From Aporrectodea caliginosa (Eukaryota; Annelida; Clitellata; Crassiclitellata; Lumbricidae), in contig JACEVL010000206.1 in NCBI GenBank assembly GCA_020284085.1, positions 626,001 through 690,000 of the forward strand: DNA of 64,000 nt. Direction: 5' to 3'. Positions 11,447 through 44,144 of the stretch are shown here, piece by piece. The stretch's first letter is position 1. Every line of letters begins with the position of its first letter. The notes beneath the pieces were generated by a model that was not told the DNA's origin, searched no databases, and saw only the letters and a program-made list of their open reading frames with translations. Both the position numbers and the translations under genes were made by a program.

Positions 11447-11451
11447 CAGAG

Positions 11452-12086
11452 TGTCACGGCCTACCCTCTCACACGTGGCAGGATAGCACTGTGATCTTCA
11501 ACCCACGACACACGGAAGAGTTTTTCTATACTTTATTACCTACAGCTAAGCGACGTTAAGTGACTACGTTTAATACAGTCTAACTTCGGTATTACATAAG
11601 AGAAAAGAATAATGTTTCTGCAGCGTCTGATGCTCAACGTGTCTCTCGGCAATCGGCCAGGTGAAGTTAGCCTCGACTCCGTCGTAACAAGATGTTCTGT
11701 AGAGAGAGCCCCGTACCCTCCCGACCCAGCGTTTAAATACCGTTAGTCGTCCCTTTGGGTCGGGCGTGACGAATTCGCGTTGGCGTCCCTTCAAAGGCTT
11801 ATCGATCCTTTGAAGGTGGGGCGAAAGTGATTCCCTGTGGCGGCGATGGTCGTCAGTCCGTCGACATATGTCCGCCAGATGGCGCCTGCCTCGTTAACGG
11901 AGGTCGGCGGTCGCCGCTTAATCAGGGCGAAGGGGTGCACGACGAATTGACCTCTTTCATCCGTATAGCGGTCGCTGCGTCGTTACCCCGAGTTTGACCG
12001 TTAGTTCGGGTCACAGAGTGCACTTGTGAATTCCATTGCTGCCCCGTTGAAGGTCGTCGCGTAGGCTGATGGAGCTGACCGCGACA
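11452..12086 (-). repeat. Gypsy LTR copy (3' LTR), minus orientation
   Basis: A 635-bp reverse-complement copy of the LTR at 20889-21523, with TG...CA ends and no difference that I noticed. The five bases outside it, 11447-11451, are CAGAG; the complementary CTCTG lies outside the other LTR (20884-20888). In a normal provirus these would be the same-strand target duplications, which requires the intervening DNA to be inverted. The polyadenylation signal AATAAA lies in the R/U5-like part. A short 74-codon frame inside the LTR is not considered a gene. Confidence 0.93.
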
Positions 12087-12130
12087 TTCCCTCCCATCCT
12101 AAGACGATGGCGCATGTCAGAGATCCTCGC
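12087..12130 (-). mobile_element. Gypsy 3' internal stub with polypurine tract
   Basis: On the minus strand this reads as the end of the retrotransposon interior, finishing GGATGGGAGGGAA directly before the LTR: a good polypurine tract. Thirty-seven bases (12094-12130) are repeated exactly at 27338-27374, where the main body of the element breaks off. Confidence 0.88.
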
Positions 12131-12854
12131 GTCTACCAATGGGGGGGTTTGGAGACCGATCTCCATCCAACTTCAAAAGTGGGGGGGTTTGAGCGATTTT
12201 GGCCGAAAGTGGGGGGGTTTCATTTTTTCATGATATATCTTTTCTCCTGTATGATTGTGATAATATTAACCCACATTAAACCATTATCGTGGGATCGAAA
12301 TTCTCTTGTTTCCATAACAGTAGCAAACGGCTTGTACAACAGAACCCTTACTGCACAGCCTGCACTGCCATGGGGTGGGGTTGGGTTGGAGACCCCGTTA
12401 CATCAAGGCACGGACCCCGGTATACCAGGCGTCCGTGTATCAATGCAGCTGTACCCTTACGAGTCTACAGCCAACGGGTCAACGGCTTACGCGATATACC
12501 GGCCAAACATTTGGGGAGGGTTGAGGACCCTGAGGTTGCTGCGCTAATGACGGCGGCCCAGACTGGCAGCGTTCTCCGCTGCAAACCTGCAATCTGCATC
12601 ATGTGTATCATCACTTCGGCCGTTATCTGGCTCAGCCATCGAAATGGCCCATCTCTAGCCCTCTCTGACCTGTCCAGTCAGTGTGTGGCGGACATTTCAA
12701 ATGAAAATATATGCATAGGAGTAATAATTATAGCCTACGTTGGACTCACGAATATATGAACGCGTTGCGAGTTGATTCATTTAGCCTACTTTATTTCTTC
12801 TGACTTCTAAGTGAGTATTTTTTATGAAATGATACACAATGATAAACAGGGACG

Positions 12855-13095
12855 AGGTGGTGTAGCGGTGTGTTCTCTGCCTTGTAACCGGAAGGTCGCA
12901 GGTTGAATCTACCTCAAGCAAGTTGAAGCAATTGTGTAGCGACCCTGGACAAGTTGCTCACCCTTAATTGTCTGTGAGGAAGCAGGAAGGCAACGGGAAA
13001 CCACCTTAATCGTATTATCCCCGGGCGGCATAAAAAACAATGGATCTGCCTTCTGGTAGAGAACTCCGCATCATCATCATCAAATGAAAAGTCCT
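12855..13095 (+). repeat. SINE inside TE-X copy 1
   Basis: The tRNA-like head has GGTGGTGTAGCGGTGTG and a B-box-like GGTCGCAGGTTGAATC, then a body ending in a CATCATCATC tail. It is related to, but distinct from, the main SINE family. In copy 2 the head and the sequence upstream are deleted while the 3' part remains. Confidence 0.75.
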
Positions 13096-13809
13096 ATTCT
13101 TATAGCAGTATAGCCACATTGCAAATAGCTAATAACAGATCTATAGATTGTGCGCAAATCATGGCCAGTGTCCTTACCAGGCACCATCGTCTGTGTAGCT
13201 AGATGGTGCATTAAAGACTTTAAACACTTAAAGTCATTCTAACTAACTAACTAACTAACTATAGCCAGATTGACTCCAAACTTCAGCTTGGTATAGAAAA
13301 ACCCCTAAGATGTCCTTAAATACACTTATTTAGAAAATATATCTCTAAATTTGTTATTTCGCCAGCCAGAGGCCAAACGAAAAAAATAATGTTTTAACTG
13401 TCATTTCTTAAATTCTTAAACAGCTTTAGTCCGATTGACTTCAAACTTGACCTAGATAAGGTCATAAGGAGTGAAAGGTTCCAAATAACATGGTAACAAC
13501 AGACGTAAAATTCATCCCAATGATCTATTTTATATCTTTTTGGCCAAGCCCCATGTTGTGTCAGGGTTAGAAGGATCATTTCTTGCTGACTTTCTTCACA
13601 AAGAAAAAGTCCAGGAAAAGGATATATGTTTGTTGGTATTCATGCATTATCACTGGCCGTTAACACTTTCACATTAATTTTTCTTTTACCGTCTTTAAAT
13701 AGCTTTAGGCAAGAGTAGGGCCTAGAGTAGGGATGCATTGCTTTTGTGAAGGATACATAATATATAATATAATTATATATCATATATATAATATATATAT
13801 CATATATAA

Positions 13810-14748
13810 TCTTATACTATAATTCTTAAAGTTTGTCCTTCCGTATGTATGTATGTTTGCAATGCATCGCTGTCCGGCTAAAGGCTCCGAAACGGAACGG
13901 TTTAGCGAGTTGAAAAAATTTACAAAGCATTATTACGCAAAGTCTAGGTCAACGCGACTATTTTCAGTTCGCAATTTTATTTAAACGCCGATATATGGCC
14001 ATTTTAAATTTAACTTTTCAGCGAGCTTATTTCAATACCGCCCATAGTAAGGCCATTTGTTCACGTCACGCATGCTTAATAAGCAATCTTACGTCACACG
14101 GAGCATCTAGCAACCAATCAGAAGTCGCCACAGGCGAATTTCTAGGTCAGCGCAACCATTTACAGATTTGGTGACCTAATTACACTAAGCTCACATTTTT
14201 TGCAACCACGACCATTGCCGATTTTCTAGGTCAAAGCAACTCGAAACATACTTTAGCTATTCGAATTTCTATCTCATCCCAATTACTTTCAGCTCATAAT
14301 TTGCTTTCAATTCCGATTTATGGACATTATAAGCATGCCCATTTGTCCACGTCACTAAAATTAATATGCAATCTTAAATTACGTCACGCGGCTAAATATG
14401 CAATCTTACGTCACGCTGGCCAACGGCAAATAATACGCCTATTATAATTTAGAAATAACCCGTGTAGTACGGGGAACAAAATAATACGCCTATTTCAGGT
14501 AGAGATAAACCGTAAAGAACGGGGAACAAAATAATAATATTGCCTATAATTATAAGGTAGAGATAACCCGTGCAGTACACGGGCAAAGCAACTATGTTCA
14601 CCTCTAAATATCGTTTCCATTCAGATATATGGACATTTTTAAATATTTGAAGCCCATCAGCAAATATAGTAAGTAAGTAGCCTTTATTTGCAGCCGTTAA
14701 AAATTACGCCTGGGAAAACCCGGGCGAACGCCGGGTAAAAATTGCTAG
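13810..14748 (+). mobile_element. Non-autonomous Helitron nested in TE-X copy 1
   Basis: The 5' end reads TCTTATACTATAATTC, then a TATGTATGTTTG stretch and GGCTCCGAAACGG, the layout typical of animal Helitrons. The 3' end has a GC-rich hairpin (ACCCGGGCGAACGCCGGGT) followed by a short spacer and CTAG. It lies between A and T of an AT microsatellite with no target duplication, as expected. No Rep/helicase gene is present. Intermediate hairpin-like blocks (CCCGTGTAGTACGGG, CCCGTGCAGTACACGGG) may be relics of earlier 3' ends. Confidence 0.85.
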
Positions 14749-15080
14749 TATATATATATATTATATATATATATATATATCATATATATATCATATATAT
14801 AATATATAATTATATAGGCCTATATAAAAAATATATATACACTGAAAGCACTGAAATTAAATTAGTGTCTACATAGTAATATTTTAAATAATTTTTAGTA
14901 AAAATTTTAATTTACTAAATTAGTTTTAATAGCTGAAAAAGGTCCCGGAACGCCGTTCCGGACCGTTCCGGCCGAAAAAAGCACTGCACCGAAATGTGTG
15001 TTTCAGATGCAAATTTTTGGGCCCAGTGGGGGGGTTGGTTCTCCATTGTAAATCTGGGGGTCACGTCATTCACTGCAAAA

Positions 15081-15410
15081 ATGTCAACAAGGCTGATGAA
15101 GAATTTTCTAGAGTTGAAGCTGCTTAAAGAAGCTTCGCCCAAAATGAGGAAAAAGATTATGAAGAATTGCAAACAGACTCTCTTGTGTTGTCTTTGCGAA
15201 TGTGCGCTCAACGTCTTAAAAGGAAATGTTCCTCTGAAGGAAGCTCAGAAGACTAGACTGAGTCGATTCAAACAGAAGCTCAGAAAATTAACTTCTAAGA
15301 AAACTCGTCAGAAGATTAAGAGGCGAATCGTACAATCTGGTGGTTTCTTAGGTGCGCTGCTAACACCCGTGCTTTCCTTCCTCGGTACGCTGCTAAGCAA
15401 TAAAATATAG
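15081..15410 (+). CDS. Small basic Polinton protein with hydrophobic C-terminus
   Basis: 109 residues. The start at 15081 is chosen because upstream codons lie in the TE-X target duplication and TE-X itself. It is Lys/Arg-rich with several Cys (CLCECALNVL near residue 38), and near the end has a hydrophobic segment starting QSGGFLGALL. Similar short basic proteins with a GGFL-type hydrophobic tail occur in virus-like elements, but I cannot name a function; a membrane-active or virion core role is conceivable. TE-X landed exactly across this start codon, duplicating it. The stop is one base before the next ATG. Its promoter may have been displaced by TE-X. Confidence 0.75.
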   Translation: MSTRLMKNFLELKLLKEASPKMRKKIMKNCKQTLLCCLCECALNVLKGNVPLKEAQKTRLSRFKQKLRKLTSKKTRQKIKRRIVQSGGFLGALLTPVLSFLGTLLSNKI

Positions 15411-15411
15411 T

Positions 15412-16065
15412 ATGGAGCATACGAAAAAGATGGTTTTAGTAGAACCACGACAAATTGAGAAATGGAAGGAAACTATGTTAGATAAAACCCTATCGAAATT
15501 AGACGGAGAAATGTATGAGATACTTCATCGGAACATTGCAGACGATGATAAAGCAAAATTGTACTCGAACAGTTTAAGTCGCTATTTGAATATGGATAAA
15601 CCTAACGTTATAACCAAGTTCGAATCTGGGGATGCCGCCGCCGCCGCCGCCCAGGGCGCTAAACCACCAGCACTCGACTATTCGAGACTTATAGAACAGG
15701 AAGTGTTGGAATCAGTTCCAAAGAAATGGAAAAGTCAGGCTTCTAGGTTGTTAACTCACATGAATGTCAATCCCGATATTCGTTGGAACTCAAAGGGAGA
15801 ACTCGTTTTGAAGAATGCCACTATTCCAAAGACGCATGCAGTGGACTTGGTCAACGATCTGCTCAGAAAAAGAACGACGTCTTCGCTTCCAACCGGTTGG
15901 AGACAGCTCGCCGACGCTTTGAAAGACTCAAATATCCCTCACGAACTAATCGGTAACCAAGATCGTTGGGCATATATTAATGCTTCCACAGAAGAAACTC
16001 CACCAGTTACTCCGAGTCGTAAACGAGAAAGGCTAGAAAGTCTACCAAAGTGGGTACACTACTGA
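15412..16065 (+). CDS. Conserved Polinton protein of unknown function
   Basis: 217 residues, without recognised catalytic motifs. The N-terminal half is helical and charged (EMYEILHRN, then a SRYLNMDKPNVI stretch), followed by an alanine run from GCCGCC repeats near residue 77. The C-terminal half has SVPKKWKSQASRLL, NPDIRWNSKGELVLKNATIP and VDLVNDLLR, which I associate with proteins encoded next to integrase in Polinton-like elements of invertebrates. The start is one base after the previous stop, and the TGA overlaps the integrase ATG (TGATG). It may be a virion or DNA-binding protein; the role is unassigned. Confidence 0.78.
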   Translation: MEHTKKMVLVEPRQIEKWKETMLDKTLSKLDGEMYEILHRNIADDDKAKLYSNSLSRYLNMDKPNVITKFESGDAAAAAAQGAKPPALDYSRLIEQEVLESVPKKWKSQASRLLTHMNVNPDIRWNSKGELVLKNATIPKTHAVDLVNDLLRKRTTSSLPTGWRQLADALKDSNIPHELIGNQDRWAYINASTEETPPVTPSRKRERLESLPKWVHY

Positions 16066-17099
16066 TGGAATCGTATTTCGATCCTAAGCAAGCTGGCAGT
16101 TTCGGTGGAGTTGCGACGTTTCAAAGACACGTTAATGGAGATTTTAAAAATAAGGATATTAAAACTTGGTTGCGCGAGCAAGACGCTTACACATTGCATA
16201 AACCTGTAAGATTAAATTTTAGACGACGAAGAACTTTTACCGTTGGTATAGACGACTTGTGGCAAGCTGATCTTGTAGATCTTTCTACATTGTCAAAACA
16301 TAATGATGGCAATAAATATATATTAACCTGTATAGATGTTTTTTCCAAGTACGCATGGGCGATTCCGTTGAAAACGAAGAGTGGTCCTGAGTTGACGGAT
16401 GCCTTTAAGTCGTTTCTTGTAGATAGACACCCTGCTCATTTACAGACAGATAAAGGAACAGAGTTTCTCAATAGAAATTTTCAATCCATGCTGCGCGATA
16501 ATGCAATTCGCTTTTACACGAGTGAAAATGACGATGTAAAGGCTTCGGTAGTTGAAAGATTTAATCGAACGCTTAAAACGAAGATGTGGAAATATTTTAC
16601 TCACACGAATACGTATCGATATGTAACCGTTTTACAAGACTTGCTACTTTCATATAACAACACATATCACCGCAGCATAGGCATGGCGCCCAGTCGTGTG
16701 AGTTTGGAAAATGAAGCACTTATAAGAAAGCGCTTGTACGGTGAAAAGAAACGACCGACAAAGTGGAGATATAGCGTGGGTGATAAGGTACGAATTTGTA
16801 AAGCTAGAATTGCATTCAAGAAGGGATACTTACCGAGCTGGTCGGAAGAAATTTTCGTAATCATTGCTCGAATACCAACCGATCCCATAACATACGAACT
16901 GCGTGATCTTAACGGTGAGACGTTAAAGGGTAAATTCTACGAACCCGAGCTGCAACAGATTTTGAAAAAAGACGACGTATACAAAATAGAACGAATTTTA
17001 AAGAGTCGCAAGCGCGCCGGCAAAACCGAATATTTCGTAAAGTGGAAGGGTTACGACAACAATTTCAACTCGTGGACATCTGATATATTCGATCTGTAG
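16065..17099 (+). CDS. Retrovirus-like integrase with C-terminal chromodomain
   Basis: 344 residues from the ATG at 16065, which overlaps the preceding stop; an upstream in-frame GTG is not needed. The rve core has its catalytic triad in QADLVD (about residue 67), LQTDKGTEF (about 128) and VVERFNR (about 163), with 34 residues between the second Asp and the Glu. A YNNTYHRSIGMAPS stretch closes the core. The last 40 residues form a chromodomain (YKIERIL, then YFVKWKGY, then N-SW). In Polintons this enzyme inserts the linear element and leaves 6-bp duplications, matching the GACATC repeats here. The chromodomain may steer insertion to histone-marked chromatin. All key residues are present. Confidence 0.94.
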   Translation: MESYFDPKQAGSFGGVATFQRHVNGDFKNKDIKTWLREQDAYTLHKPVRLNFRRRRTFTVGIDDLWQADLVDLSTLSKHNDGNKYILTCIDVFSKYAWAIPLKTKSGPELTDAFKSFLVDRHPAHLQTDKGTEFLNRNFQSMLRDNAIRFYTSENDDVKASVVERFNRTLKTKMWKYFTHTNTYRYVTVLQDLLLSYNNTYHRSIGMAPSRVSLENEALIRKRLYGEKKRPTKWRYSVGDKVRICKARIAFKKGYLPSWSEEIFVIIARIPTDPITYELRDLNGETLKGKFYEPELQQILKKDDVYKIERILKSRKRAGKTEYFVKWKGYDNNFNSWTSDIFDL

Positions 17100-17164
17100 T
17101 CGTTCGCGAGTTCAGTTTCGTAAAGTATATCGCGTATATAGGGTCGTTTCTCTCAAGCTATAGA
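17100..17164 (+). promoter_or_regulatory. Only sizeable gap in the gene block; possible internal promoter
   Basis: Sixty-five bases separate integrase from the penton gene, while all other junctions are at most 5 bp. It contains a TATA-like GCGTATATAGGG at about 17131-17142, about 25 bp ahead of the penton ATG. It may start transcription of the capsid block. This is inferred from spacing and sequence only. Confidence 0.4.
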
Positions 17165-17977
17165 ATGGCGCATTTTTACCTTACGTTGCCTAGTAACAGC
17201 TCTATGCTTTACTATCCCAATAACACTCTTACACATTATACGACGAGATTAGCGAATGCAATATCGTTGACTGGCGAATGGGAGGTTGGTTTGGTGGAAA
17301 TTCAATATCAACATAGCTGGTCTAATTTAGAAAAAATGGAAGGTAGATTTACTTATTTACAAATGGGCAAAAGTGTCGATGATAAACCGCGAAGTTCTAT
17401 GACTAGGACACTGCGTCTATCGCCTGGATATTACGAAACCCCATCTGATTTAGTAGATTCGATAAATGTCCTTATAAAAGAAGCAGCCTGTGGAGGCAAA
17501 TATGAATCGTATCCAAGGTTCACGTATAATCCTATAACGAAGCGTCTCAATGCAGATTTATCAGCAATGTCACGTGTAAATTTCTCTCCAACATTATGCT
17601 CTATGTTGGGTATCGGTAGTCGTCAGAACCCAATTGAAAACGAAGATGATAGCAATTGGGATTGGAAAGGTACAAACGCATGCGACATCAATCGTGGTTT
17701 TTCTTCCATGTACGTCTATTGCAATGTCTTAGAGCACGTTTCAATCGGTGATACAAAAGCTCCGTTACTTCGCATCGTTCGCGTAACTGAAAAAGGTGGT
17801 CAGACTGTGAATACGATATACGAAAAACCTCTATATGTCCCACTACAGCTGAAAACATTTGACTCCTTAGAAATTGATATAAGAAGCGACACTGGCAATC
17901 CAATTCCATTTGAATACGGGAAGGTGATTGTGACACTACATTTCAGACGCTGCAAAATACCATATCATCTACAATGA
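17165..17977 (+). CDS. Polinton minor capsid (penton) protein
   Basis: 270 residues. The opening MAHFYLTLPSNSSMLYYPNN, then THYTTRL, LTGEWEVGLVEI and LSPGYYETPSDLV, is the pattern of the single jelly-roll penton proteins of animal Polintons; the fold itself is not visible here and is taken from that family. It would sit at the fivefold vertices of an icosahedral shell built by the major capsid protein. The frame is complete, and the stop overlaps the next start (ATGA). Its place between integrase and the major capsid gene fits the element. Confidence 0.9.
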   Translation: MAHFYLTLPSNSSMLYYPNNTLTHYTTRLANAISLTGEWEVGLVEIQYQHSWSNLEKMEGRFTYLQMGKSVDDKPRSSMTRTLRLSPGYYETPSDLVDSINVLIKEAACGGKYESYPRFTYNPITKRLNADLSAMSRVNFSPTLCSMLGIGSRQNPIENEDDSNWDWKGTNACDINRGFSSMYVYCNVLEHVSIGDTKAPLLRIVRVTEKGGQTVNTIYEKPLYVPLQLKTFDSLEIDIRSDTGNPIPFEYGKVIVTLHFRRCKIPYHLQ

Positions 17978-18378
17978 AAAAACAATTTTGTTGCGATGCG
18001 AGTAGACTCGACTATGAAGATTATTATTTGAATCAGAGCGGTAACGGAATGTCCGTGTTCCAAGGTGCTCGTATGCAACGCGGACATGGTTTGGGGAGTT
18101 TTCTGAGTGGTCTTTTCAGAAACGCTTGGCCACTCATTCAAACAGGTGCTAAGGCTTTTGGAAAACAATTTCTGAGAACTGGTTTGCAGATTGCCAATGA
18201 TGTCGTAGAGGGACAAGAACTTAAAGAGTCGAGCAAAAGACGTATTCCTGAAGGTATAAAAGCATTCACATCGTCTAGCGATTTCACTAACCAGAGCGGC
18301 AGTGGTAGGAAGAGACGAAAAAGATCTCTTAAGAGAATTACTAAAAGAGTAAAGCACGACATATTCGGTGAGATCTAA
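17974..18378 (+). CDS. Small Polinton protein, glycine-rich middle and basic tail
   Basis: 134 residues. The middle has GLGSFLSGLFRNAWPLIQTG followed by AKAFGKQFLRTGLQIANDVV, an amphipathic segment conserved in small proteins encoded beside Polinton capsid genes. The tail is very basic (GRKRRKRSLKRITKRVKHD). It could bind packaged DNA or membranes, like adenovirus core or lytic proteins; that is inference. It overlaps the penton gene by 4 bp and ends 5 bp before the major capsid start, so co-expression is likely. Confidence 0.8.
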   Translation: MKKQFCCDASRLDYEDYYLNQSGNGMSVFQGARMQRGHGLGSFLSGLFRNAWPLIQTGAKAFGKQFLRTGLQIANDVVEGQELKESSKRRIPEGIKAFTSSSDFTNQSGSGRKRRKRSLKRITKRVKHDIFGEI

Positions 18379-18383
18379 CAACC

Positions 18384-19706
18384 ATGGCGTTCGTCCATCC
18401 ACAGTCTTGCGAGTGCACAAAGAGTGAATTGGATCTCTTTGTTGTACCACCAACTCAGACCAGTATAGAGAGCGGCACATTTGTAGAATATAACCCAATA
18501 GCTACTATTTCTCAAGGAAATCCTATAGAATTTAGTATAACTGGAGCTGGACAAGACTATATAGACTTGTCAAATTCGCAGTTGTATGTTAGAGCTCAGA
18601 TAGTAAAAGCAAACAACGATGCTGTTGATGCCGGTGACAACGTTGGTCCAGTTAACCTGCTCTTACACAGTCTGTTTTCCGAAGTCGACATTACCTTAAA
18701 CGACACGCTTGTCACGGACTCGAACAATACGTATGCATATCGCAGCTACTTGGAAACTGTTCTAAGCTATGGAGATGCGGCTAAAAGTTCGCAATTGACA
18801 ACGGCTTTGTACTACAAAGATGTTGCCACTCATTTTGAAGAAGCCAATCCACACGATGCTAACGGTGTAAATACCGGATTCAGGAAACGCAGCGCATTGG
18901 CCAATGAAGGAAACATTGTTGAAATGTTGGGATGTATACATAGTGATCTATTCTTCCAAGATCGCTTTCTTCCTAATGACGTCAATATAAAGATACGTCT
19001 CGTCCGAAATAAAGATGCATTTTGCTTGATGTCTTCTGTCCAAGGAGCTGCATTTAAAGTTCGAATTTTGGAATGCAAGTTGTACATTAGAAAAGTTAAA
19101 CTGAGTCCGTCAGTGTTTCTTGCGCACGCGAAAGCACTCGAAGCCGGCAACGTGAAATTCCCCATTCGCCGAGGCGTTTGTAAAACATTTACCATACCCA
19201 GAGGCAATCTCGATGCCACTCAAGAATGTCTCTTCTCTGGCCAATTACCCACTCGACTCGTTATAGGATGTGTTGACAATGACGCGTTTAACGGGAGCTA
19301 TACAAAGAATCCATTCAACTTTAAACATATGAATCTGTCACAGTTAAAAGTGTACTTGGATGGTCAACAGCAATCAGTGAAGCCCTTGGAATTAAATTTC
19401 GCTAATAATCAATTTATAAACGCCTATGCTTCGTTGTTCATGGGAACTGGAAAGTGGATGCGAGACGAAGGCAACCAAATAACAAGAGAGGACTTTCCAG
19501 GAGGATATGCTCTTTACGCATTCGATCTAACAGCCGACCTAGCCGAAGGTGGCCATTTCAACCTGCTCAAGCAAGGAAATATTCGATTGGATCTGAAATT
19601 TGCGCAAGCTCTGGCGAATACGATTAATGTCATCGCATTCGCAGAGTTTGAGAATATCTTGGAAATCGACCGCTCGAGAAACGTGCTTTTCGATTACAAG
19701 AATTGA
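18384..19706 (+). CDS. Polinton major capsid protein (double jelly-roll family)
   Basis: 440 residues and apparently complete. Key stretches are SELDLFVVPPTQTSIESG, LYVRAQIVKAN, VNLLLHSLFSEVDITLND, YRSYLETVLSYG, and near the end FDLTADLAEGGHFNLLKQGN followed by IRLDLKFAQAL. They match the family commonly annotated as F54H12.2-like proteins in invertebrates, which structural comparison has assigned to double jelly-roll capsid proteins. An intact frame means this copy, or its source, was under selection recently. It starts 5 bp after the preceding stop and is followed within 2 bp by the protease. Confidence 0.93.
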   Translation: MAFVHPQSCECTKSELDLFVVPPTQTSIESGTFVEYNPIATISQGNPIEFSITGAGQDYIDLSNSQLYVRAQIVKANNDAVDAGDNVGPVNLLLHSLFSEVDITLNDTLVTDSNNTYAYRSYLETVLSYGDAAKSSQLTTALYYKDVATHFEEANPHDANGVNTGFRKRSALANEGNIVEMLGCIHSDLFFQDRFLPNDVNIKIRLVRNKDAFCLMSSVQGAAFKVRILECKLYIRKVKLSPSVFLAHAKALEAGNVKFPIRRGVCKTFTIPRGNLDATQECLFSGQLPTRLVIGCVDNDAFNGSYTKNPFNFKHMNLSQLKVYLDGQQQSVKPLELNFANNQFINAYASLFMGTGKWMRDEGNQITREDFPGGYALYAFDLTADLAEGGHFNLLKQGNIRLDLKFAQALANTINVIAFAEFENILEIDRSRNVLFDYKN

Positions 19707-19708
19707 AA

Positions 19709-20834: not shown

Positions 20835-20888
20835 GATGTCGTTAAGCTGCTCGATTTTATCCTATTACAAGTTTTGTATGTACCTCTG
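20835..20888. other. Host bridge between Polinton and gypsy, with both target duplications
   Basis: GATGTC (20835-20840) is one Polinton target duplicate, inverted relative to GACATC at 32071. CTCTG (20884-20888) is one gypsy duplicate, inverted relative to CAGAG at 11447. The 43 bp between are the only host DNA left between the two insertions. Confidence 0.88.
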
Positions 20889-21523: not shown

Positions 21524-21526
21524 TTC

Positions 21527-21545
21527 TGGTGTCAGAAGTGGGATT
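21527..21545 (+). promoter_or_regulatory. Primer binding site, tRNA-Leu type
   Basis: TGGTGTCAGAAGTGGGATT begins 3 bp after the LTR and is complementary to the 3' end of a typical animal tRNA-Leu (ending ...TCTGACACCA). It would prime minus-strand DNA synthesis. Confidence 0.85.
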
Positions 21546-22274: not shown

Positions 22275-25200
22275 TTGATGACCACTCTACCCAATTTTTT
22301 GTCGAGTTCCCACCTTTCTCCTGTAACCATGGATGAATTAACGTCGGAGAAACAGGCCGACATAAGAAAGATGTCGACAGAACGCCTGAGAATGCATTTA
22401 CATAAGGCAGGAGTAGAGGAAGAGCTTGTGTTAGCTATGGATAGGCCTCAGTTATTAGAAGAGTATGCACGTATGGTAGCTTTCGGTCAGGAAAGCGAAT
22501 CGGAAGAGACACGTACTACACCGCCTAGATACACGACGGTGATGACGGAATTCGATCTGCAGAAGCAGAGGTTTGAATTCGAGTTAAGAAAGTACGAAGA
22601 GGAACAGGCAGAACGGAGAAGGAGAGAAGAAAGAGAGAGAGTGGCGAAAGAAGAAGAGAGGAAGATAAGAGAGGAAGAGAGGAAGATGAGAGAAGTGAGA
22701 GAAGAGAGAGAGAGAGTGGCGAGAGAGGAAGAGAGGAAGATAAGAGAAAGGGAAGTGCAAATAAGGGAAACGGAACAGGCAGAACGGAAAACGAGAGAAG
22801 AAAGAGAGAGAACGGCGAGAGAAGAGGATCGAAGGTTTAAGAATTCTCTGGCTAGTCGGACACAGCGATTCGGGGAAGTAATGAAGAATGTTATGTGGAA
22901 ATTCCCCCAAGATACTTCAGAAATACCTGGTTATTTTGATCATGTAGAAAACTTGTTTGCAATGTACGAAGTGGACGATGACGTCAAAGCAAAACTTCTG
23001 TTAGGAAACCTCAATGAAAGAGCTAAACAGCTCACGACTCGCCTAACACGCGAGCAGTTGGACGACTATGAAGGCCTAAAAGGATTTCTGCTCAGGGAAT
23101 TCAAAATAAGTTCTATCCAGCTGAAGGAAAGGTTTTACACGATGCGCAAACTAACAGACGAGACGTACACAATCCTTGCCTCTAGATTGCATAACACAAT
23201 GACTTATTACCTACGCAGCCGGCAAGTTAAGAAAGACTTTGACAAGCTTGTGAGCTTACTGTGCGCCGACAGGCTCAAGGAAATGATCCCGAAGGGATGC
23301 CTAGATTTCATTCTAGCGCAAGAAAAGGACAGTTGGCTCAGCCATAGCGAGTTAGCTAACTCGATAGACACTTATATGGCGTCTCACAATAATAACGGTG
23401 AGCCTCTGCGAGCTGGTAATGTAATGGCATATAATGACTATCGGGCAGGGGACCAGCCAAACACCAATAGCTACACAAAATCAGCCAAGAGCGAGGGGAG
23501 GTACGAGGGAAGAACGGAGGGACAACCCTCAAAGGAAGACGCGATACAAAAGGGTCTTTGTTTCATCTGCTTCGGGCAAGGGCACACGGCCCGTTTTTGC
23601 AAGAACGCAAAGGCCCAGGGCGCCGATAAGAAGCAGACGCGTGTCAGCGCCTACGCAATTAACACCCCCCTTAATTACGCCATTTCCCAACCCAGTCCGA
23701 ACACAGGGGAGGAAGAAGAGAGCGCTACGGAACGGGTAGGGGAGGAGCCTCACTCCGACTCAGAGATAATGGAAGGGGAGATAGTTGACACCGATGAACA
23801 GACAAACGGTCCATTCATTGACGCAGACGAGTTCCACGTGCGGTCATACGTAGATGTCAAGATCGACGGTCTGCCCGATCAAAAGGCGTTAATTGATGGA
23901 GGGGCCGAGATTTGTTGTATTAACAGCTCATTAGTGCAACACTTGGATCTACCCGTCAACAGGCAATTAAGACTGTCGGGTATACAAGGTAAGACCGAAT
24001 TGGTCGACGTTGTAAGACTTCACATGAAACCCGGGTTCAACGACCAGGAGGGGATTGTGAACATCGCCCCCGCAGTGCGAGTATGGTGTGCTGCAGTGCC
24101 AGACCTTAATGAGGCGGTTATTCTAACCCCTACCGTAATCAATCTGTTGGGTGAAGTCTCCAAGTACAACGTGCTATCTGTTGGAAAGGTTGAACCCGAT
24201 ACGTCAAACCGACCCGAGGTCAATGTGGACACTCATCAGGTGGCCGCGATAGACGGGATTAGCGATAAGTCCAATGGCGATCACCCGGTTCAGGAAATAG
24301 CCCCAGTAGGCGAAGAAGATGATGAAGTACGTGATTTAGGAGGGGAGAGTTTAAATGCAGACGCGCCTAGTTTTTTAAATCCGGAAGAGCCGGAAGGGTT
24401 ACAGAACGAGCGGGTCGCAGATCGTGACACGCTAGAAAAGGAGCAGCATAACTGTCCCGCGCTCGCACCCTTCTGGAGATTAGCCCATCAGGACAAAGGT
24501 AGCTTTTTCATAGAAAACAAGCTTTTATATCACCGTGACACCATCATGGGCCACAAGGTAAAGCAACTGTGTCTTCCCGAACCACGCATTAATATCGTAT
24601 TGGAAATGGCACATGATGCACCTTTTGCGGGACATATGGCTTTTAAGACGACTCGTTGCCGCATTAAACTTGGTTTCTGGTTTCCTAAAATGGACGACAG
24701 GATTCGTACGTATTGTGCCTCATGCTCTATCTGCCAACTTAGGGCACCAGTCAAGGTGGCGCATAGGGTGCCGATTACTCCCATCCCGAGGGATGACGAA
24801 TTAGCCTTCACCCATCTTTCCATGGATTGTATTGGCCCGATTATCGCCCCTAACGACCCATTAGTGCCAAAGCCGGAATATAATTACGCCTTAGTACTGG
24901 TGGACAAATTCTCGCGGTGGCCTATGGCTTACCCCCTGCGATCGCTAAGCGCGAAGGGAATCTGTGACGCCCTACTGCAGACTTTTATGACCTTTTCGGT
25001 ACCGAAAGTAATCACCTCCGACTGTGGCAGTAATTTCACCAGCAAACTGACAAAGGAATTTCTCAAACGCTTGGGCTGTACTCCTCGGTTTAACACCCCA
25101 GGACACCCAGAGGCGGCCGGCCTTGTAGAACGTTGTAATCAGAGCCTGAAGGCGATGATTTACAAATTAGCCCAATCAGAACCACGCGGATGGCACCGTT

Positions 25201-27194
25201 TATTACCTTTTGTTCTCTGGAGCTTACGAGAGAAGCCATCCGCGACCACCCACATCAGCCCCTTCACTCTGGTATATGGCAGTCTACCTAAGGGACCTTT
25301 GAATATACTGAAGGAATCGTGGGCGGGGGAGCGTGAACTACCGTTTAGTATCGGCAAGAAGCCGGAAGAATACCTACAGACTTTGAAGGAAAACCTAGAA
25401 TTTGCTAAGATGTATGCAGAGTACTATGCCAACATCGAACAGAAGCGGTACGCGGCCCACTACAATCTCCGGAGCACTGATAGAAAATATCAGTTGGGAG
25501 ATAAAGTAATCGTGCTCGCTCCAGATTGGGGAGGGGCTAAGTTGTACAGTCGTTGGCAAGGACCTGCTACAATAGCAGAGGTCAAGTCGCCATACTCTTA
25601 CATTGTAGAATTAGACGGGAAAAGACGACATATACATGCTAACAAAATCAAGAAATTTAACGAACGAATCGAACGGGCAATAGTGAACAACTGCACCGTA
25701 GTGTTTGATAGAGACGAAGAGTTTGGGACGGTGGAGGTAGTCGAAAAGACTATCGAAGCCGAGGTGCCACCTAGCGAACGGGTCGACCCTCTCAAAGTAG
25801 CGCATCTATCGGATGAGGAGAGGCAACAGCTGTTCGCTGTGCTAGATAGGTACCCTACGGTATTTTCGGATAACCCCGGTTTCTGTCCACTCATTGAACA
25901 TGAGATACGGCTCCTACCTGATTTCAGACCCAAACGTCTGCGTGCTTATAAAATCCCAGAATTACTTAAACCGGAAGTTGAACGTCAGATCAAAGAGATG
26001 CTGGCACTGAATATAATTAAACCGTCGAATAGCGAGATGGCCAGTCCGGTTGTATGTGTACTCAAGGGACCCAAGGGGCAGAATGGCGTAAGACTGGCGA
26101 TTGACTACCGCCACGTCAACCGCCACTCCCTAGGTGATTGCTTCCCCACACCGGATATCGCTGACGTCCTACAAAAGGTCGGACGAGCGAAGTACATCAG
26201 CTGTTTTGACGCGAAATCCGGATATTGGCAACTTCCGGTGAAACCGGAAGATCGTTGGCTTACAGCATTCGTCTGCGACGCCGGTTTGTTTGAGTTTCAG
26301 CGAATGCCGTTCGGGTTAAAGTCGGCCAGTAACACCTTCATCCGGTGCATCTCTAGGATCTTGCAACCAGTTCGAGACTTCACGGAACCGTTTGTTGACG
26401 ACATGTCCGTGCTCTCTATGGATTGGACTTCTCACCTGGACCACCTTGATAAATTTCTCCAGACCATTAAGGATTCGGGTCTAACTCTAAGTTTGAAGAA
26501 ATGTAGTTTCGCCCAAAGTAAAACCACCTTCGTAGGTCACATGGTCGGGTCAGGTACCATCGAGCCGGATCCCAGTAAGGTAGCTACATTAGGAGACATA
26601 CAACCACCAGTAACAAAGAAGGATGTAAGACGCATCATGGGCTTTTTCAGTTATTTCAGAAACTTCATTCCTTCGTTGGCCGAAACGGCACGTGTCATAA
26701 CTAACTTAACACAGAAGAACGTACCCAACAAGGTCCCGTGGGACCGGGAACATCAAGAGGCTCTAGATAAATTAAAGGCAGATCTCGGCAGGGCAACCCA
26801 GTTACATACCATCGATTTCACAAAGGATTTTGGCCTATTGGTTGACGCCAGTTCAGCCGCTGTCGGATGTTGTCTGATTCAATGGACAGAGGAAGGAGGC
26901 GAAAAGCCGATTTCCTTTGCCAGCATGAAGCTGTCGGAGACCCAGACGCGCTGGTCCACGATTGAACGAGAAGCGTTCGCGGTAATCTGGGCGCTGAAAC
27001 GATTTCGGTCGTGGGTATTTCTGTCTCGGATCATTGTCTTTTCTGATCATAACCCATTGTCTTTTTTGACCGAGGCGGCGCCTAAGAGCGCCAAGTTAGC
27101 TCGGTGGGCCCTAGCCCTACAGGAATTTAACATTGATTTCAGGTACCTCCCCGGACCCCGGAATATCGCAGCCGATTTCCTGTCCCGGATTTGA
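22275..27194 (+). CDS. Gag-Pol of a Ty3/gypsy element with integrase before reverse transcriptase
   Basis: 1639 residues in one frame; a second ATG at 22330 (MDELTSEK) may be the real start. Order: charged Glu/Arg coiled coil (about 95-195), capsid-like region (about 210-350), zinc knuckle CFICFGQGHTARFC (about 431), protease-like LIDGGAEICCINSS (about 538), integrase (HHCC finger about 779-820; Asp in THLSMDCIGP about 848; Asp in TSDCGSNF about 914; Glu in LVERCNQS about 950; GPY/F-like tail), then RT (MPFGLKSASNTF, FVDD about 1373), then RNase H (LVDASSAAVG about 1521, IEREAFAVIW, FSDHNPL) ending at the stop. Nothing follows RNase H. This PR-IN-RT-RH order is that of the Gmr1 group rather than typical gypsy. 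The protease motif is DGG, not the usual DTG or DSG. Confidence 0.93.
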   Translation: MMTTLPNFLSSSHLSPVTMDELTSEKQADIRKMSTERLRMHLHKAGVEEELVLAMDRPQLLEEYARMVAFGQESESEETRTTPPRYTTVMTEFDLQKQRFEFELRKYEEEQAERRRREERERVAKEEERKIREEERKMREVREERERVAREEERKIREREVQIRETEQAERKTREERERTAREEDRRFKNSLASRTQRFGEVMKNVMWKFPQDTSEIPGYFDHVENLFAMYEVDDDVKAKLLLGNLNERAKQLTTRLTREQLDDYEGLKGFLLREFKISSIQLKERFYTMRKLTDETYTILASRLHNTMTYYLRSRQVKKDFDKLVSLLCADRLKEMIPKGCLDFILAQEKDSWLSHSELANSIDTYMASHNNNGEPLRAGNVMAYNDYRAGDQPNTNSYTKSAKSEGRYEGRTEGQPSKEDAIQKGLCFICFGQGHTARFCKNAKAQGADKKQTRVSAYAINTPLNYAISQPSPNTGEEEESATERVGEEPHSDSEIMEGEIVDTDEQTNGPFIDADEFHVRSYVDVKIDGLPDQKALIDGGAEICCINSSLVQHLDLPVNRQLRLSGIQGKTELVDVVRLHMKPGFNDQEGIVNIAPAVRVWCAAVPDLNEAVILTPTVINLLGEVSKYNVLSVGKVEPDTSNRPEVNVDTHQVAAIDGISDKSNGDHPVQEIAPVGEEDDEVRDLGGESLNADAPSFLNPEEPEGLQNERVADRDTLEKEQHNCPALAPFWRLAHQDKGSFFIENKLLYHRDTIMGHKVKQLCLPEPRINIVLEMAHDAPFAGHMAFKTTRCRIKLGFWFPKMDDRIRTYCASCSICQLRAPVKVAHRVPITPIPRDDELAFTHLSMDCIGPIIAPNDPLVPKPEYNYALVLVDKFSRWPMAYPLRSLSAKGICDALLQTFMTFSVPKVITSDCGSNFTSKLTKEFLKRLGCTPRFNTPGHPEAAGLVERCNQSLKAMIYKLAQSEPRGWHRLLPFVLWSLREKPSATTHISPFTLVYGSLPKGPLNILKESWAGERELPFSIGKKPEEYLQTLKENLEFAKMYAEYYANIEQKRYAAHYNLRSTDRKYQLGDKVIVLAPDWGGAKLYSRWQGPATIAEVKSPYSYIVELDGKRRHIHANKIKKFNERIERAIVNNCTVVFDRDEEFGTVEVVEKTIEAEVPPSERVDPLKVAHLSDEERQQLFAVLDRYPTVFSDNPGFCPLIEHEIRLLPDFRPKRLRAYKIPELLKPEVERQIKEMLALNIIKPSNSEMASPVVCVLKGPKGQNGVRLAIDYRHVNRHSLGDCFPTPDIADVLQKVGRAKYISCFDAKSGYWQLPVKPEDRWLTAFVCDAGLFEFQRMPFGLKSASNTFIRCISRILQPVRDFTEPFVDDMSVLSMDWTSHLDHLDKFLQTIKDSGLTLSLKKCSFAQSKTTFVGHMVGSGTIEPDPSKVATLGDIQPPVTKKDVRRIMGFFSYFRNFIPSLAETARVITNLTQKNVPNKVPWDREHQEALDKLKADLGRATQLHTIDFTKDFGLLVDASSAAVGCCLIQWTEEGGEKPISFASMKLSETQTRWSTIEREAFAVIWALKRFRSWVFLSRIIVFSDHNPLSFLTEAAPKSAKLARWALALQEFNIDFRYLPGPRNIAADFLSRI

Positions 27195-27374
27195 ATGAGG
27201 GGGAGGATGAGAACCTGTCGCAACGAGGGTCGAACCTCGTCGCCTTGTACATAATATGTAACTAATACATGTGTATATTCTTTGTATCTTCTTCAACATG
27301 GACACGCGATGCTGAGGACGAACCGGACGAATCGATGGCGAGGATCTCTGACATGCGCCATCGTCTTAGGATGG
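27195..27374 (+). mobile_element. Gypsy 3' untranslated end, interrupted
   Basis: Follows the stop codon with a purine-rich GAGGGGGAGGATGAG. It breaks off at 27374 in TE-X copy 2, before the polypurine tract and LTR; those lie at 11452-12130 in inverse orientation. Bases 27338-27374 repeat 12094-12130 exactly. Confidence 0.85.
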
Positions 27375-30053
27375 AGAACCAACCCCCCCACTGGGCCCAA
27401 AAAAATTTGCATCTGAAACACACATTTCGGTGCAGTGCTTTTTTCGGCCGGAACGGTCCGGAACGGCGTTCCGGGACCTTTTTCAGCTATTAAAACTAAT
27501 TTAGTAAATTAAAATTTTTACTAAAAATTATTTAAAATATTACTATGTAGACACTAATTTAATTTCAGTGCTTTCAGTGTATATATATTTTTTATATAGG
27601 CCTATATAATTATATATTATATATATGATATATATATGATATATATATATATATATAATATATATATATACTAGCAATTTTTACCCGGCGTTCGCCCGGG
27701 TTTTCCCCAGGCGTAATTTTTAACGGCTGCAAATAAAGGCTACTTACTTACTATATTTGCTGATGGGCTTCAAATATTTAAAAATGTCCATATATCTGAA
27801 TGGAAACGATATTTAGAGGTGAACATAGTTGCTTTGCCCGTGTACTGCACGGGTTATCTCTACCTTATAATTATAGGCAATATTATTATTTTGTTCCCCG
27901 TTCTTTACGGTTTATCTCTACCTGAAATAGGCGTATTATTTTGTTCCCCGTACTACACGGGTTATTTCTAAATTATAATAGGCGTATTATTTGCCGTTGG
28001 CCAGCGTGACGTAAGATTGCATATTTAGCCGCGTGACGTAATTTAAGATTGCATATTAATTTTAGTGACGTGGACAAATGGGCATGCTTATAATGTCCAT
28101 AAATCGGAATTGAAAGCAAATTATGAGCTGAAAGTAATTGGGATGAGATAGAAATTCGAATAGCTAAAGTATGTTTCGAGTTGCTTTGACCTAGAAAATC
28201 GGCAATGGTCGTGGTTGCAAAAAATGTGAGCTTAGTGTAATTAGGTCACCAAATCTGTAAATGGTTGCGCTGACCTAGAAATTCGCCTGTGGCGACTTCT
28301 GATTGGTTGCTAGATGCTCCGTGTGACGTAAGATTGCTTATTAAGCATGCGTGACGTGAACAAATGGCCTTACTATGGGCGGTATTGAAATAAGCTCGCT
28401 GAAAAGTTAAATTTAAAATGGCCATATATCGGCGTTTAAATAAAATTGCGAACTGAAAATAGTCGCGTTGACCTAGACTTTGCGTAATAATGCTTTGTAA
28501 ATTTTTTCAACTCGCTAAACCGTTCCGTTTCGGAGCCTTTAGCCGGACAGCGATGCATTGCAAACATACATACATACGGAAGGACAAACTTTAAGAATTA
28601 TAGTATAAGATTATATATGATATATATATTATATATATGATATATAATTATATTATATATTATGTATCCTTCACAAAAGCAATGCATCCCTACTCTAGGC
28701 CCTACTCTTGCCTAAAGCTATTTAAAGACGGTAAAAGAAAAATTAATGTGAAAGTGTTAACGGCCAGTGATAATGCATGAATACCAACAAACATATATCC
28801 TTTTCCTGGACTTTTTCTTTGTGAAGAAAGTCAGCAAGAAATGATCCTTCTAACCCTGACACAACATGGGGCTTGGCCAAAAAGATATAAAATAGATCAT
28901 TGGGATGAATTTTACGTCTGTTGTTACCATGTTATTTGGAACCTTTCACTCCTTATGACCTTATCTAGGTCAAGTTTGAAGTCAATCGGACTAAAGCTGT
29001 TTAAGAATTTAAGAAATGACAGTTAAAACATTATTTTTTTCGTTTGGCCTCTGGCTGGCGAAATAACAAATTTAGAGATATATTTTCTAAATAAGTGTAT
29101 TTAAGGACATCTTAGGGGTTTTTCTATACCAAGCTGAAGTTTGGAGTCAATCTGGCTATAGTTAGTTAGTTAGTTAGTTAGAATGACTTTAAGTGTTTAA
29201 AGTCTTTAATGCACCATCTAGCTACACAGACGATGGTGCCTGGTAAGGACACTGGCCATGATTTGCGCACAATCTATAGATCTGTTATTAGCTATTTGCA
29301 ATGTGGCTATACTGCTATAAGAATAGGACTTTTCATTTGATGATGATGATGCGGAGTTCTCTACCAGAAGGCAGATCCATTGTTTTTTATGCCGCCCGGG
29401 GATAATACGATTAAGGTTCATATATTCGTGAGTCCAACGTAGGCTATAATTATTACTCCTATGCATATATTTTCATTTGAAATGTCCGCCACACACTGAC
29501 TGGACAGGTCAGAGAGGGCTAGAGATGGGCCATTTCGATGGCTGAGCCAGATAACGGCCGAAGTGATGATACACATGATGCAGATTGCAGGTTTGCAGCA
29601 GAGAACGCTGCCAGTCTGGGCCGCCGTCATTAGCGCAGCAACCTCAGGGTCCTCAACCCTCCCCAAATGTTTGGCCGGTATATCGCGTAAGCCGTTGACC
29701 CGTTGGCTGTAGACTCGTAAGGGTACAGCTGCATTGATACACGGACGCCTGGTATACCGGGGTCCGTGCCTTGATGTAACGGGGTCTCCAACCCAACCCC
29801 ACCCCATGGCAGTGCAGGCTGTGCAGTAAGGGTTCTGTTGTACAAGCCGTTTGCTACTGTTATGGAAACAAGAGAATTTCGATCCCACGATAATGGTTTA
29901 ATGTGGGTTAATATTATCACAATCATACAGGAGAAAAGATATATCATGAAAAAATGAAACCCCCCCACTTTCGGCCAAAATCGCTCAAACCCCCCCACTT
30001 TTGAAGTTGGATGGAGATCGGTCTCCAAACCCCCCCATTGGTAGACGCCACTG
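27371..30053 (-). mobile_element. TE-X, copy 2 (inverted)
   Basis: Reverse complement of 12129-15046 apart from a deletion of about 250 bp (between TATGAAC and CTTAATCG, near 29415). On the minus strand it begins CAGTGGCGTCTACCAATGGG. Its left neighbour is gypsy, its right neighbour is Polinton (30054 onward). Contains the same nested Helitron. Confidence 0.85.
27671..28610 (-). mobile_element. Non-autonomous Helitron nested in TE-X copy 2
   Basis: Inverse copy of 13810-14748 with the same TC start, GC hairpin and CTAG end, in the same position within TE-X. The Helitron therefore entered TE-X before the two TE-X copies separated. Confidence 0.85.
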
Positions 30054-30099
30054 CATTTTTGCAGCGAATGACGTGACGAAGATTTACGTGGTCTTATAT

Positions 30100-30714
30100 T
30101 CATTTCCTCATGTAGACATAATGCGTTTCGCCTGGGAATATATTGGTTCTCAATCTACATCTCTCGTCGGATGCTGCTGTCAGATCGACTAGAAGATAGC
30201 CAAAGGGCACCATAGTCGCATCTGCAAATGCTTCTATCATAAATTGCGATTTTCCAGGAAACATCTGTCTGGCCAAATTTGCAACTTGCGTAGAATCTCG
30301 TACATTCTTGAAAAGAACTAGATAATGTGCATTCAAACTTATCGTTCTCATATGTTTGTTGTTATAAAATAGATTTTGAGTGAGGTATAATATAGAAACA
30401 TTTCTATGGTGACTGATTTTCGTGAATAGCATTGTTACACGCTGGTCAGTCTCAGCCATTAAATCATCCAGCACAAGAAGAGTGCTCTCTTTTCCATCGA
30501 AAATATTCAAGTCTGGAAGCCCCTCGTGAAACTGAATTTGTGGATACTTATCAAAAATTTCTTGATAGATGCCATAGCACCACATTACTTTATGGATTGT
30601 CGGCTTCACCATATGAGGCAAATGATCTATAAAACGCAGAGTAAATTGCGTTTTGCCACAGCCTGAGGGACCACTAACTATAGCCGAGAAAGGATGTGTC
30701 CAACTGACGTCCAT
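30100..30714 (-). CDS. Genome-packaging ATPase (A32/FtsK-HerA type)
   Basis: 204 residues, starting MDVSWTHPFSAIVSGPSGCG: the Walker A motif GPSGCGKT is at about residues 15-22. Walker B is LLVLDDL (about 79-85), followed by a sensor-like LTQNLF (about 119) and SLNAHYLVLFKN. This is the compact packaging ATPase of Polintons and related DNA viruses, which would pump the element's DNA into the capsid at the cost of ATP. All motifs are present. In the element's own order it precedes the small basic protein gene, with TE-X now between. It is transcribed divergently from the RING gene, with 220 bp between starts. Confidence 0.92.
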   Translation of the reverse strand: MDVSWTHPFSAIVSGPSGCGKTQFTLRFIDHLPHMVKPTIHKVMWCYGIYQEIFDKYPQIQFHEGLPDLNIFDGKESTLLVLDDLMAETDQRVTMLFTKISHHRNVSILYLTQNLFYNNKHMRTISLNAHYLVLFKNVRDSTQVANLARQMFPGKSQFMIEAFADATMVPFGYLLVDLTAASDERCRLRTNIFPGETHYVYMRK

Positions 30715-30934
30715 TGTAGAAACTGATAGAAAGTTATAACACGTTCAATTTATATAAGCCGAAGGAGAAATACAAACTAAAGGTTGTGCTCTTCCGCTCA
30801 CTCGTATCAGTATAAGACTTATAACCGTTGATGCATTTAAATGTGAAATTTCATAGGCCTGTGGTCATTATACGTCGAGTGGTCAACGCAGTCGCACTCA
30901 ACGATTCATCACAGTTCTCAAGCTGTACACGAAA
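30715..30934. promoter_or_regulatory. Divergent promoter region, ATPase and RING genes
   Basis: The 220-bp interval between divergent starts has ATTTATATAAGCC near 30748 on the plus strand, usable as TATA in either direction. It probably drives both genes; no direct evidence. Confidence 0.4.
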
Positions 30935-31381
30935 ATGTGTTTTAAGCACGTAAAGAAGGAGCTTATTCAGATGTTTGAGCAACCGTCGAAAGATGATTGC
31001 CCTTGCTGTGTAGACGAAATTGATGGGGATGAAGAACACATATTAAAGCCATCTAACCATTCTCCATCGAAAGAAACGAGTCGTATTCAGCGCTGTCAGT
31101 TCGATGTCTGTGGAAATTATCAATGTGTGTGTGAAATTTGTAGGCCTGAAGCTGAAGGAAAAGAATTAAACTCGAGAGAGCTTCGTCTATCACGTCTTAA
31201 GACCGAGAATGAAATGTTTAAGCGTTCTGTGATTTGTCGAAATTGCAAAATGAATAACGTTGAAATTCTGGCGTTGCCTTGCACGCATGTTGTAACTTGT
31301 GAAAAATGTGCTGACATTTTAGATAATTGCCCATTGTGTGATGCGAGAGTTCTCGGAACAGTTCGAATTTACATGGCTTAA
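30935..31381 (+). CDS. RING-finger protein (IAP-like C3HC4), Polinton-encoded
   Basis: 148 residues. The C-terminal part has the RING spacing CRNCKMNN, then LALPCTHVVTCEKCA, then CPLCDARVLGTVRIYM, close to the RING of inhibitor-of-apoptosis proteins. No BIR repeat is present. The N-terminal half has another Cys cluster (CPCC near residue 22; C..C...C.C..C near 83-98) that may bind zinc. A RING suggests E3 ubiquitin ligase activity, and in a virus-like element perhaps control of host cell death or defence; this is inference. It is the only gene on its strand in the element and ends 13 bp before the terminal repeat, whose AATAAA (31427-31432) could serve it. Confidence 0.85.
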   Translation: MCFKHVKKELIQMFEQPSKDDCPCCVDEIDGDEEHILKPSNHSPSKETSRIQRCQFDVCGNYQCVCEICRPEAEGKELNSRELRLSRLKTENEMFKRSVICRNCKMNNVEILALPCTHVVTCEKCADILDNCPLCDARVLGTVRIYMA

Positions 31382-31394
31382 ACTCGTCTTAATA

Positions 31395-32070
31395 CAGTTT
31401 AATGTACTGAAGTTGTGTTTCTCATTAATAAAGTGTGATTAAACTCATGTCTTTTCGTGTTTGGTAGATCGATTAGTATAGGCTTTGAGACACCGCCTAT
31501 AGCGTGTGTGATTGAGTGGTGCACAATAATCTATGAGAAAAGCACAGTCAAGCAATAATGAGAGCGAAGTTAAGCTAGTTTTAAGTGTGTGAACCCTTAA
31601 CTCACTCCATTTCTCTATAATACGAGATGTCTACTAGAGCACGTCGCTGTGTGTGTGTGTGTGTGTGTGTGATGTCAAACCATAATGAGCCCCTTATTCT
31701 ATAATTCGGCGTGTCATTGGTTGCGAGTACAAACGTCTAATGTTGTGCCATACAGCAAAGTTAAAGGCTGTAGTGTAAAATGCTGGCCGCTTTGTGGTTA
31801 ATGAATAATGAATGAGCTTGGGCACTTTGCAGTGGAGGGGGAGGGGTATGCACATGCACGCCCCACGCGGGCAACCCTTGGCCAAATTTAATGGGTATCT
31901 GTTTTTAGCGGAGGCAGTGGTCGATTGACCTTTGACCCTGTATTCGTACCCAAACTGATGTCCAAAACGGGAGTGTAAAAGTGGGTGGGGTATAAATTGA
32001 GGTCCAAAACGGGAGTGTAAATGTGGGTGGGGTATAAATTGAGGTACAAAACGGGGTATTCATAACTACT
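31395..32070 (+). repeat. Polinton terminal repeat B
   Basis: About 676 bp matching 20149-20834, with AATAAA at 31427-31432, a (GT)n tract at about 31650-31670, and 42-bp terminal tandem units. It currently lies in the same orientation as repeat A. Confidence 0.9.
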
Positions 32071-32076
32071 GACATC

Positions 32077-32172
32077 TTATGGCATCAAAGGCCGTTGACG
32101 TCAATAGTCCAAATAACCCTTCGTCAACATAATAACAATACAACACACAATACAACACATCACAATACAACT
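32077..32172 (+). repeat. Host repeat at the Polinton target site
   Basis: CTTATGGCATCAAAGGCCGTTGACGT continues the dispersed repeat into which the Polinton inserted; relatives lie near 37.2, 44.5 and 54.2 kb. A CACAATACAAC simple repeat follows. Confidence 0.7.
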
Positions 32173-44102: not shown

Positions 44103-44144
44103 GATAATATATATTGAAATTATGATTTAATTAAATTAATTATT

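Follow-up and report, generated by a model that had tools for sequence, protein, structure and literature searches.

When two copies of one transposon stand in opposite orientation at the edges of an inversion, were they its cause, or is one of them its product? This question is raised by a stretch of 64,000 nucleotides (nt) from the annelid Aporrectodea caliginosa (GenBank assembly GCA_020284085.1, contig JACEVL010000206.1, here C205, positions 626001-690000), which we call the window and which contains no N. Here host DNA received a Ty3/gypsy element and a Polinton at points 43 bp from each other; both elements are split in two, and the stretch between the splits is flipped. Its edges are occupied by two mutually inverted copies of a transposon that we call TE-X (12129-15046 on the plus strand; 27371-30048 on the minus strand, or reaching 30053 if the terminal CACTG is included). 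Barring an assembly error, comparisons across the genome confirmed that the assembled chromosome has the segment between the gypsy 3' end and the middle of the Polinton flipped relative to its ancestor. As to its origin, we favour, with moderate confidence, a single break-and-repair event in which staggered breaks duplicated TE-X and a 31-mer of gypsy in inverted orientation.

One inversion shared by two elements

The two gypsy long terminal repeats (LTRs) are inverted relative to each other and identical throughout, and the two Polinton terminal repeats point the same way in their alignment (606 bases align, 520 of them identically, alongside 150 gap columns; the final ~146 columns are identical). 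As they stand, the gypsy target duplications read CAGAG and CTCTG and those of the Polinton GATGTC and GACATC; either pair becomes equal only after one side is flipped. These features had led the sequence-only reading to propose one inversion common to both elements, or a misoriented segment, of 15-18 kb. That size agrees with ours if the TE-X arms are counted, the unique part (~15047-27370) being 12.3 kb, and the proposal itself is supported by the sister copies and empty host sites described below.

The edges carry further duplications, a perfect one of 31 bp in gypsy (12098-12128 and 27340-27370) and an imperfect one of ~34 bp in the Polinton (15048-15083 and 30054-30087). These sequences beside TE-X match only across the flip, with local scores of 31 and 25 when flipped and of 7 and 8 when unflipped; none of 4965 random pairs from the window scored 25 or more (maximum 24). 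The host repeat TTAACGACATCTTATGGCA has an exact match at 44516-44534 and, at up to three mismatches, seven matches in the window against a mean of 0.03 in shuffled sequences, one of the seven being the Polinton edge itself (32066-32084).

Sister copies and empty host sites

We searched the assembly (1.098 Gb in 4544 contigs) for relatives of each part. The gypsy LTR was compared with six loci outside the window (L001 and L004-L008), three of which (L005, L006 and L008) are unbroken across the split site and contain one copy of the 31-mer each; the other three loci (L001, L004 and L007) lack the site, consisting of solo LTRs or a 5' LTR. Other copies of the family are flanked by 5-bp duplications (GATGT in L001, ATACC in L007, TTGTC in L004/L005). 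In L009 and L010, two pieces that are apart in the window, one ending at 27374 and the other at 12130, adjoin with an overlap of 37 bp, and the LTRs of L009 are direct.

For the Polinton, 40 of 122 first-look candidates were scored and one sister copy (L061), covering the middle part of one other Polinton only, was compared in detail. This uninterrupted copy contains, in one continuous run, 15483-15048 (reversed) and 30054-30154, with an overlap of 34 bp. All 39 non-window matches listed start at 30054, just beyond the terminal CACTG of TE-X, and the TE-X terminus is present at this site in none of them.

The host DNA provides a comparison that does not involve transposons. The left host flank (11086-11446, 361 bp) has 11 matches, all on C205. 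The ten listed matches other than the flank itself are 77-86% identical, and the repeat that received both insertions is, on this sequence evidence, a local repeat family. Three of these ten, on the same contig, were used as paralogous empty sites. All three align through the left flank, the flipped spacer and the right flank with gaps of 1 to 15 bases. The 43-bp spacer scored 46, 45.5 and 31 when flipped and 14 in every case when unflipped; for the whole site the scores were 301, 245.5 and 206.5 against 233.5, 181.5 and 157. The empty sites thus keep the spacer in its flipped state, which places host DNA inside the segment in inverted orientation relative to that outside, without recourse to transposon rules. 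Neither the sister copies nor the empty sites depend on the duplication rules, and the inversion reading survives both comparisons.

TE-X and its two copies in the window

A search with the 5' part of TE-X returned 422 first-look candidates, 40 of which were scored; 38 of these are non-window copies of at most 98% identity, and 20 were compared in detail. The family has terminal inverted repeats (TIRs, CAGTGGCGTC) and 8-bp target duplications. Both ends, CAGTGGCGTCTACC and GTTAGACGCCACTG, are present in 16 of the 20 copies; only the 5' end was found in L047, L052 and L058, and the 5' pattern failed to pick up L060. The 8-bp duplication is exact in 10 of the 16 two-ended copies and has at most one mismatch in 11, the remaining five having 3 to 7 mismatches. 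If length is taken as the span between the outermost bases in common with copy 1, it is ~1.9-2.2 kb in 11 of the 16 copies that could be measured and 2.8-4.3 kb in five. Open frames over the window copies reach at most 174 amino acids, stop to stop. By its TIRs and 8-bp duplications TE-X is a non-autonomous transposon, and from the TIR and the duplication length we take its superfamily to be hAT-like. A transposon with target duplications of 31-36 bp, as the window alone would suggest, is ruled out by the family TIRs and the ten exact 8-bp duplications.

Elsewhere, on contig C256, two TE-X copies lie in opposite orientation (L042, 41184-44736; L048, 73567-70055) and have in common both TE-X and ~1.5 kb of right flank, which is 92% identical. 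The common block begins exactly at the TE-X terminus CAGTG in both; the 8-bp duplications match in L048 and do not match in L042. This is a possible second inverted duplication edged at a TE-X end.

The two window copies differ by one substitution in 2675 aligned bases, plus 246 gap columns. The main gap is a 243-bp block that is missing from copy 2 and of which 237-243 bases are present in all 20 other copies. Nine substitutions in the 5' part are common to the window copies and found in none of the 20; with gaps ignored, the pair is 99.9% identical in this part and the closest other copy 99.5%. Both window copies also contain a ~930-bp block without a match of at least 120 bp in the other 20, three of which yielded no 3' part; two matches of 40-50 bp to it were found, both in L043. 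The shared private substitutions, the ~930-bp block and the near identity make it probable that both copies stem, recently, from one parent copy.

At the gypsy junctions, TE-X is 5 bp short on one side and ~28 bp short on the other, is bordered by the 31-mer, and meets gypsy at microhomologies of CCAT and GC. The loss of both termini and a duplication of 31 bp, where the family has 8, make the gypsy-side TE-X look unlike a product of transposition.

On the Polinton side, the full left terminus of copy 2 adjoins CAAAAATG (reverse strand), and the same 8 bases stand past copy 1. The right end of copy 1 (15047-15075), judged against 17 family ends, combines patches of native Polinton sequence and a run of G like that of TE-X, and this replacement of the TE-X right terminus looks like several short template switches. 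In the native Polinton the target CATTTTTG is directly followed by CAGTG, the same five bases as the TE-X terminus, and we suggest that this match could have guided a template switch. CACTG at 15071-15075 was rejected as an intact TE-X right terminus, as the native Polinton has the same five bases there.

Origin of the inversion

In the event that we favour, TE-X would at first have been present only in the Polinton, with the insertions of gypsy, Polinton and TE-X all older than the inversion. One break would have occurred in the gypsy 3' region, its strand ends ~31 nt apart, and the other in the Polinton at TE-X, its strand ends near the two TE-X termini. After fill-in or template copying, the intervening segment would have been rejoined backwards via 2-4 bp of microhomology, leaving the 31-mer and TE-X inverted at both edges and each TE-X trimmed on the gypsy side. 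This one event would account for why the 31-mer and TE-X are each present in inverted orientation, why TE-X is trimmed where it meets gypsy and why its two copies are nearly identical. Inversions by staggered breaks are recognised by inverted duplications, at both edges, of DNA that was single-copy; the 31-mer is single in the three unbroken gypsy copies, and we infer that TE-X was single at the locus before the inversion. The identical LTRs and the single substitution between the TE-X copies suggest that the inversion is recent. The sequence-only reading had placed the flipped segment between the two TE-X copies; an inverted pair does stand at both edges, but TE-X looks like the product of the event and not its substrate.

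The break at TE-X may in turn have been set by abortive cutting of the transposon's ends. In the fuller form of this proposal, which gives the transposase a predicted role and which we hold only tentatively, as rather unlikely, abortive cutting at both ends of one hAT-like element would be the staggered break itself: the strand ends would be separated by the length of the transposon, and their repair together with a second break would leave a small inversion between two trimmed, opposite transposable element copies.

Several observations weigh against the single staggered-break event. Capture of a trimmed TE-X followed by recombination leads to the same final structure, and gene conversion could be an alternative source of the features private to both copies. 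The altered right end on the Polinton side, ~2 bp from the end of the gypsy-side copy, is something that this model in its simple form does not predict. A stagger of nearly exactly the transposon length is a coincidence unless a transposase was involved, and the five two-ended family copies without matching 8-bp duplications resemble the window copy in lacking them. No uninverted haplotype was seen, the left host flank being on no second contig.

The alternative with the most in its favour is that a staggered break in gypsy took up a trimmed TE-X copied from the Polinton next to it, which made the 31-bp duplication, and that ectopic homologous recombination later flipped the segment. We consider this less likely than the single event. 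In its favour, inverted repeats as alike as these, 2.7-2.9 kb long and separated by 12.3 kb, lend themselves well to recombination, and exchanged duplications are a published sign of ectopic recombination (PMC2775673). It requires, however, an unusual capture plus a second event, with a gypsy-side TE-X that lacks both termini and is flanked by 31 bp instead of 8; the crossover point would not be visible, since the window copies are only one substitution apart. The picture implied by the sequence-only reading is that TE-X inserted twice independently, once in gypsy and once in the Polinton, and that ectopic recombination, perhaps accompanied by gene conversion, came later. The large size of the family speaks for such insertions, but the gypsy copy has neither terminus and no 8-bp duplication, and the substitutions and block that the pair shares to the exclusion of the 20 other copies mean that, without conversion, these are not independent members of the family; we consider this course of events highly improbable.

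Finally, the chromosome could truly be uninverted, the assembler or a haplotype switch having joined the wrong ends through the TE-X copies, whose near identity is what a collapsed repeat would show. Yet a trimmed TE-X with a 31-bp duplication inside gypsy would still be required, and the copies, which differ by the 243-bp block and small indels, were not simply a single sequence that was collapsed. The 361-bp left flank has no match on any other contig, so that there is no sign of another haplotype with which this one could have been confused, and the window is without N. Such an artefact seems improbable to us.

Features of the locus

Table 1. Annotated parts of the rearranged locus, in window coordinates
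Feature	Positions	Strand	Evidence
Gypsy 5-bp target duplication CAGAG, outer side	11447-11451	+	sequence; 5-bp duplications in other family copies
Gypsy LTR, the 3' LTR in element orientation	11452-12086	-	635/635 identical to inverted 20889-21523
Gypsy 3' end adjoining the LTR; 31-mer copy at 12098-12128	12087-12128	-	alignment
TE-X copy 1, without the family's first 5 bp (CAGTG) on the gypsy side	12129-15046	+	family comparison
243-bp block of TE-X copy 1	12760-13002	+	in 20/20 other copies compared, not in copy 2
~930-bp block of both window TE-X copies	13824-14751	+	comparison with 20 other copies
Polinton-like patchwork replacing the TE-X right terminus, then 8-bp duplication CAAAAATG (15076-15083)	15047-15083	+	
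Polinton half 1, now inverted	15084-20148	+	chromodomain integrase, capsid-type and C5 protease frames
Polinton terminal repeat, outer end ACTACT at 20834	20149-20834	+	alignment; (AGT)2 end motif
Polinton 6-bp duplication GATGTC (flipped: GACATC)	20835-20840	+	
43-bp spacer of host DNA separating the insertions; orientation opposite to that of the outer host flanks	20841-20883	-	three paralogous empty sites
Gypsy 5-bp duplication CTCTG (flipped: CAGAG)	20884-20888	+	
Gypsy 5' LTR	20889-21523	+	
Gypsy internal part; second 31-mer copy at 27340-27370	21524-27370	+	open frame 22266-27194
TE-X copy 2; ~28 bp short on the gypsy side, full terminus CACTG (30049-30053) on the Polinton side	27371-30053	-	
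Polinton half 2, not inverted; 8-bp duplication CATTTTTG at 30054-30061	30054-31394	+	ATPase and RING genes
Polinton terminal repeat, outer end ACTACT at 32070	31395-32070	+	alignment
Polinton 6-bp duplication GACATC	32071-32076	+	

In the gypsy open frame the integrase precedes the reverse transcriptase and RNase H (Pfam rve at residues 872-948, upstream of RVT_1 at 1269-1426). The protease match is below the cut-off, and Gag was assigned by position only. The same order of integrase upstream of reverse transcriptase has been described for the Gmr1 family (PMC8220671), and the window element, judged by domain order, is of the Gmr1 type of Ty3/gypsy.

Polinton/Maverick terminal repeats have (AGT)2 ends and a 6-bp target duplication (PMC8097293); the window element ends in AGTAGT and has GACATC on both sides once flipped. 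Pfam matches identify a chromodomain integrase (16026-17099) and a C5 protease (19655-20164, extending into the terminal repeat) in one half, and in the other an A32-like ATPase (30100-30744, minus strand), just over the cut-off, and a RING protein (30857-31381, plus strand). The frame at 18387-19703, which has 2491 database relatives, we take to be the major capsid protein; scans of viral_contigs with this frame and its alignment gave no confirmed relatives. Besides integrase, capsid, C5 protease and ATPase genes, Polintons are characterised by a protein-primed DNA polymerase B; among the ten open reading frames searched, nine of which belong to the Polinton or its borders, none matched a DNA polymerase. 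A second Polinton copy, on contig C598 (L062), has the ATPase region followed by RING-region-like sequence and part of the terminal repeat.

Outside the two elements, a long open frame of 1262 amino acids (40338-44126, minus strand) presumably belongs to a non-LTR retrotransposon, as it resembles a pol with endonuclease, reverse transcriptase and RNase H. An Rfam scan of the window gave a single match, of 18.3 bits against a gathering score of 65, and a tRNA scan found none.

Comparison with known inversions

Staggered-break inversions repaired by end joining have been reported in Drosophila (PMC3355041, PMC4965816). There too, inverted duplications of the DNA between the breaks flank the segment, and both breakpoints can be staggered on the kilobase scale, as in inversion 2q of D. 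mojavensis with staggers of ~1 kb and 4.3 kb (PMC3355041). Here, by contrast, the long duplicate is an end-trimmed transposon, the short one is 31 bp, and the whole inversion, of ~12 kb, lies inside two transposons. In the inversions mediated by Galileo through ectopic recombination (PMC2775673), it is the 7-bp duplications of the transposon itself that were exchanged, whereas the gypsy-side TE-X of the window is truncated and bordered by a 31-bp duplication of gypsy. Inversions in Atlantic cod (PMC12368964) have hAT-type miniature inverted-repeat transposable elements at their breakpoints and so resemble the present case in the hAT-like, non-autonomous character of the elements. Opposite elements at the breakpoints are taken in that work as a sign of ectopic recombination, while the window junctions suggest that two prior insertions are not needed to produce it. 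Our limited literature search turned up no inversion whose duplicated transposons are trimmed at their ends, which is no proof of absence.

Opposite breakpoint transposons have been read as implying ectopic recombination in at least one recent survey (PMC12368964). At the locus described here, the nested insertions and intact sister copies allow the junctions to be resolved to the base, and these suggest that the transposon at one edge is a by-product. If this is true, some inversions credited to transposon recombination would need to be re-read, and checking the transposon's own ends and duplications would be a simple test. Should abortive cutting also prove to have set the break, its scars would mimic classical ectopic recombination between transposable element copies, and would be misread as such.

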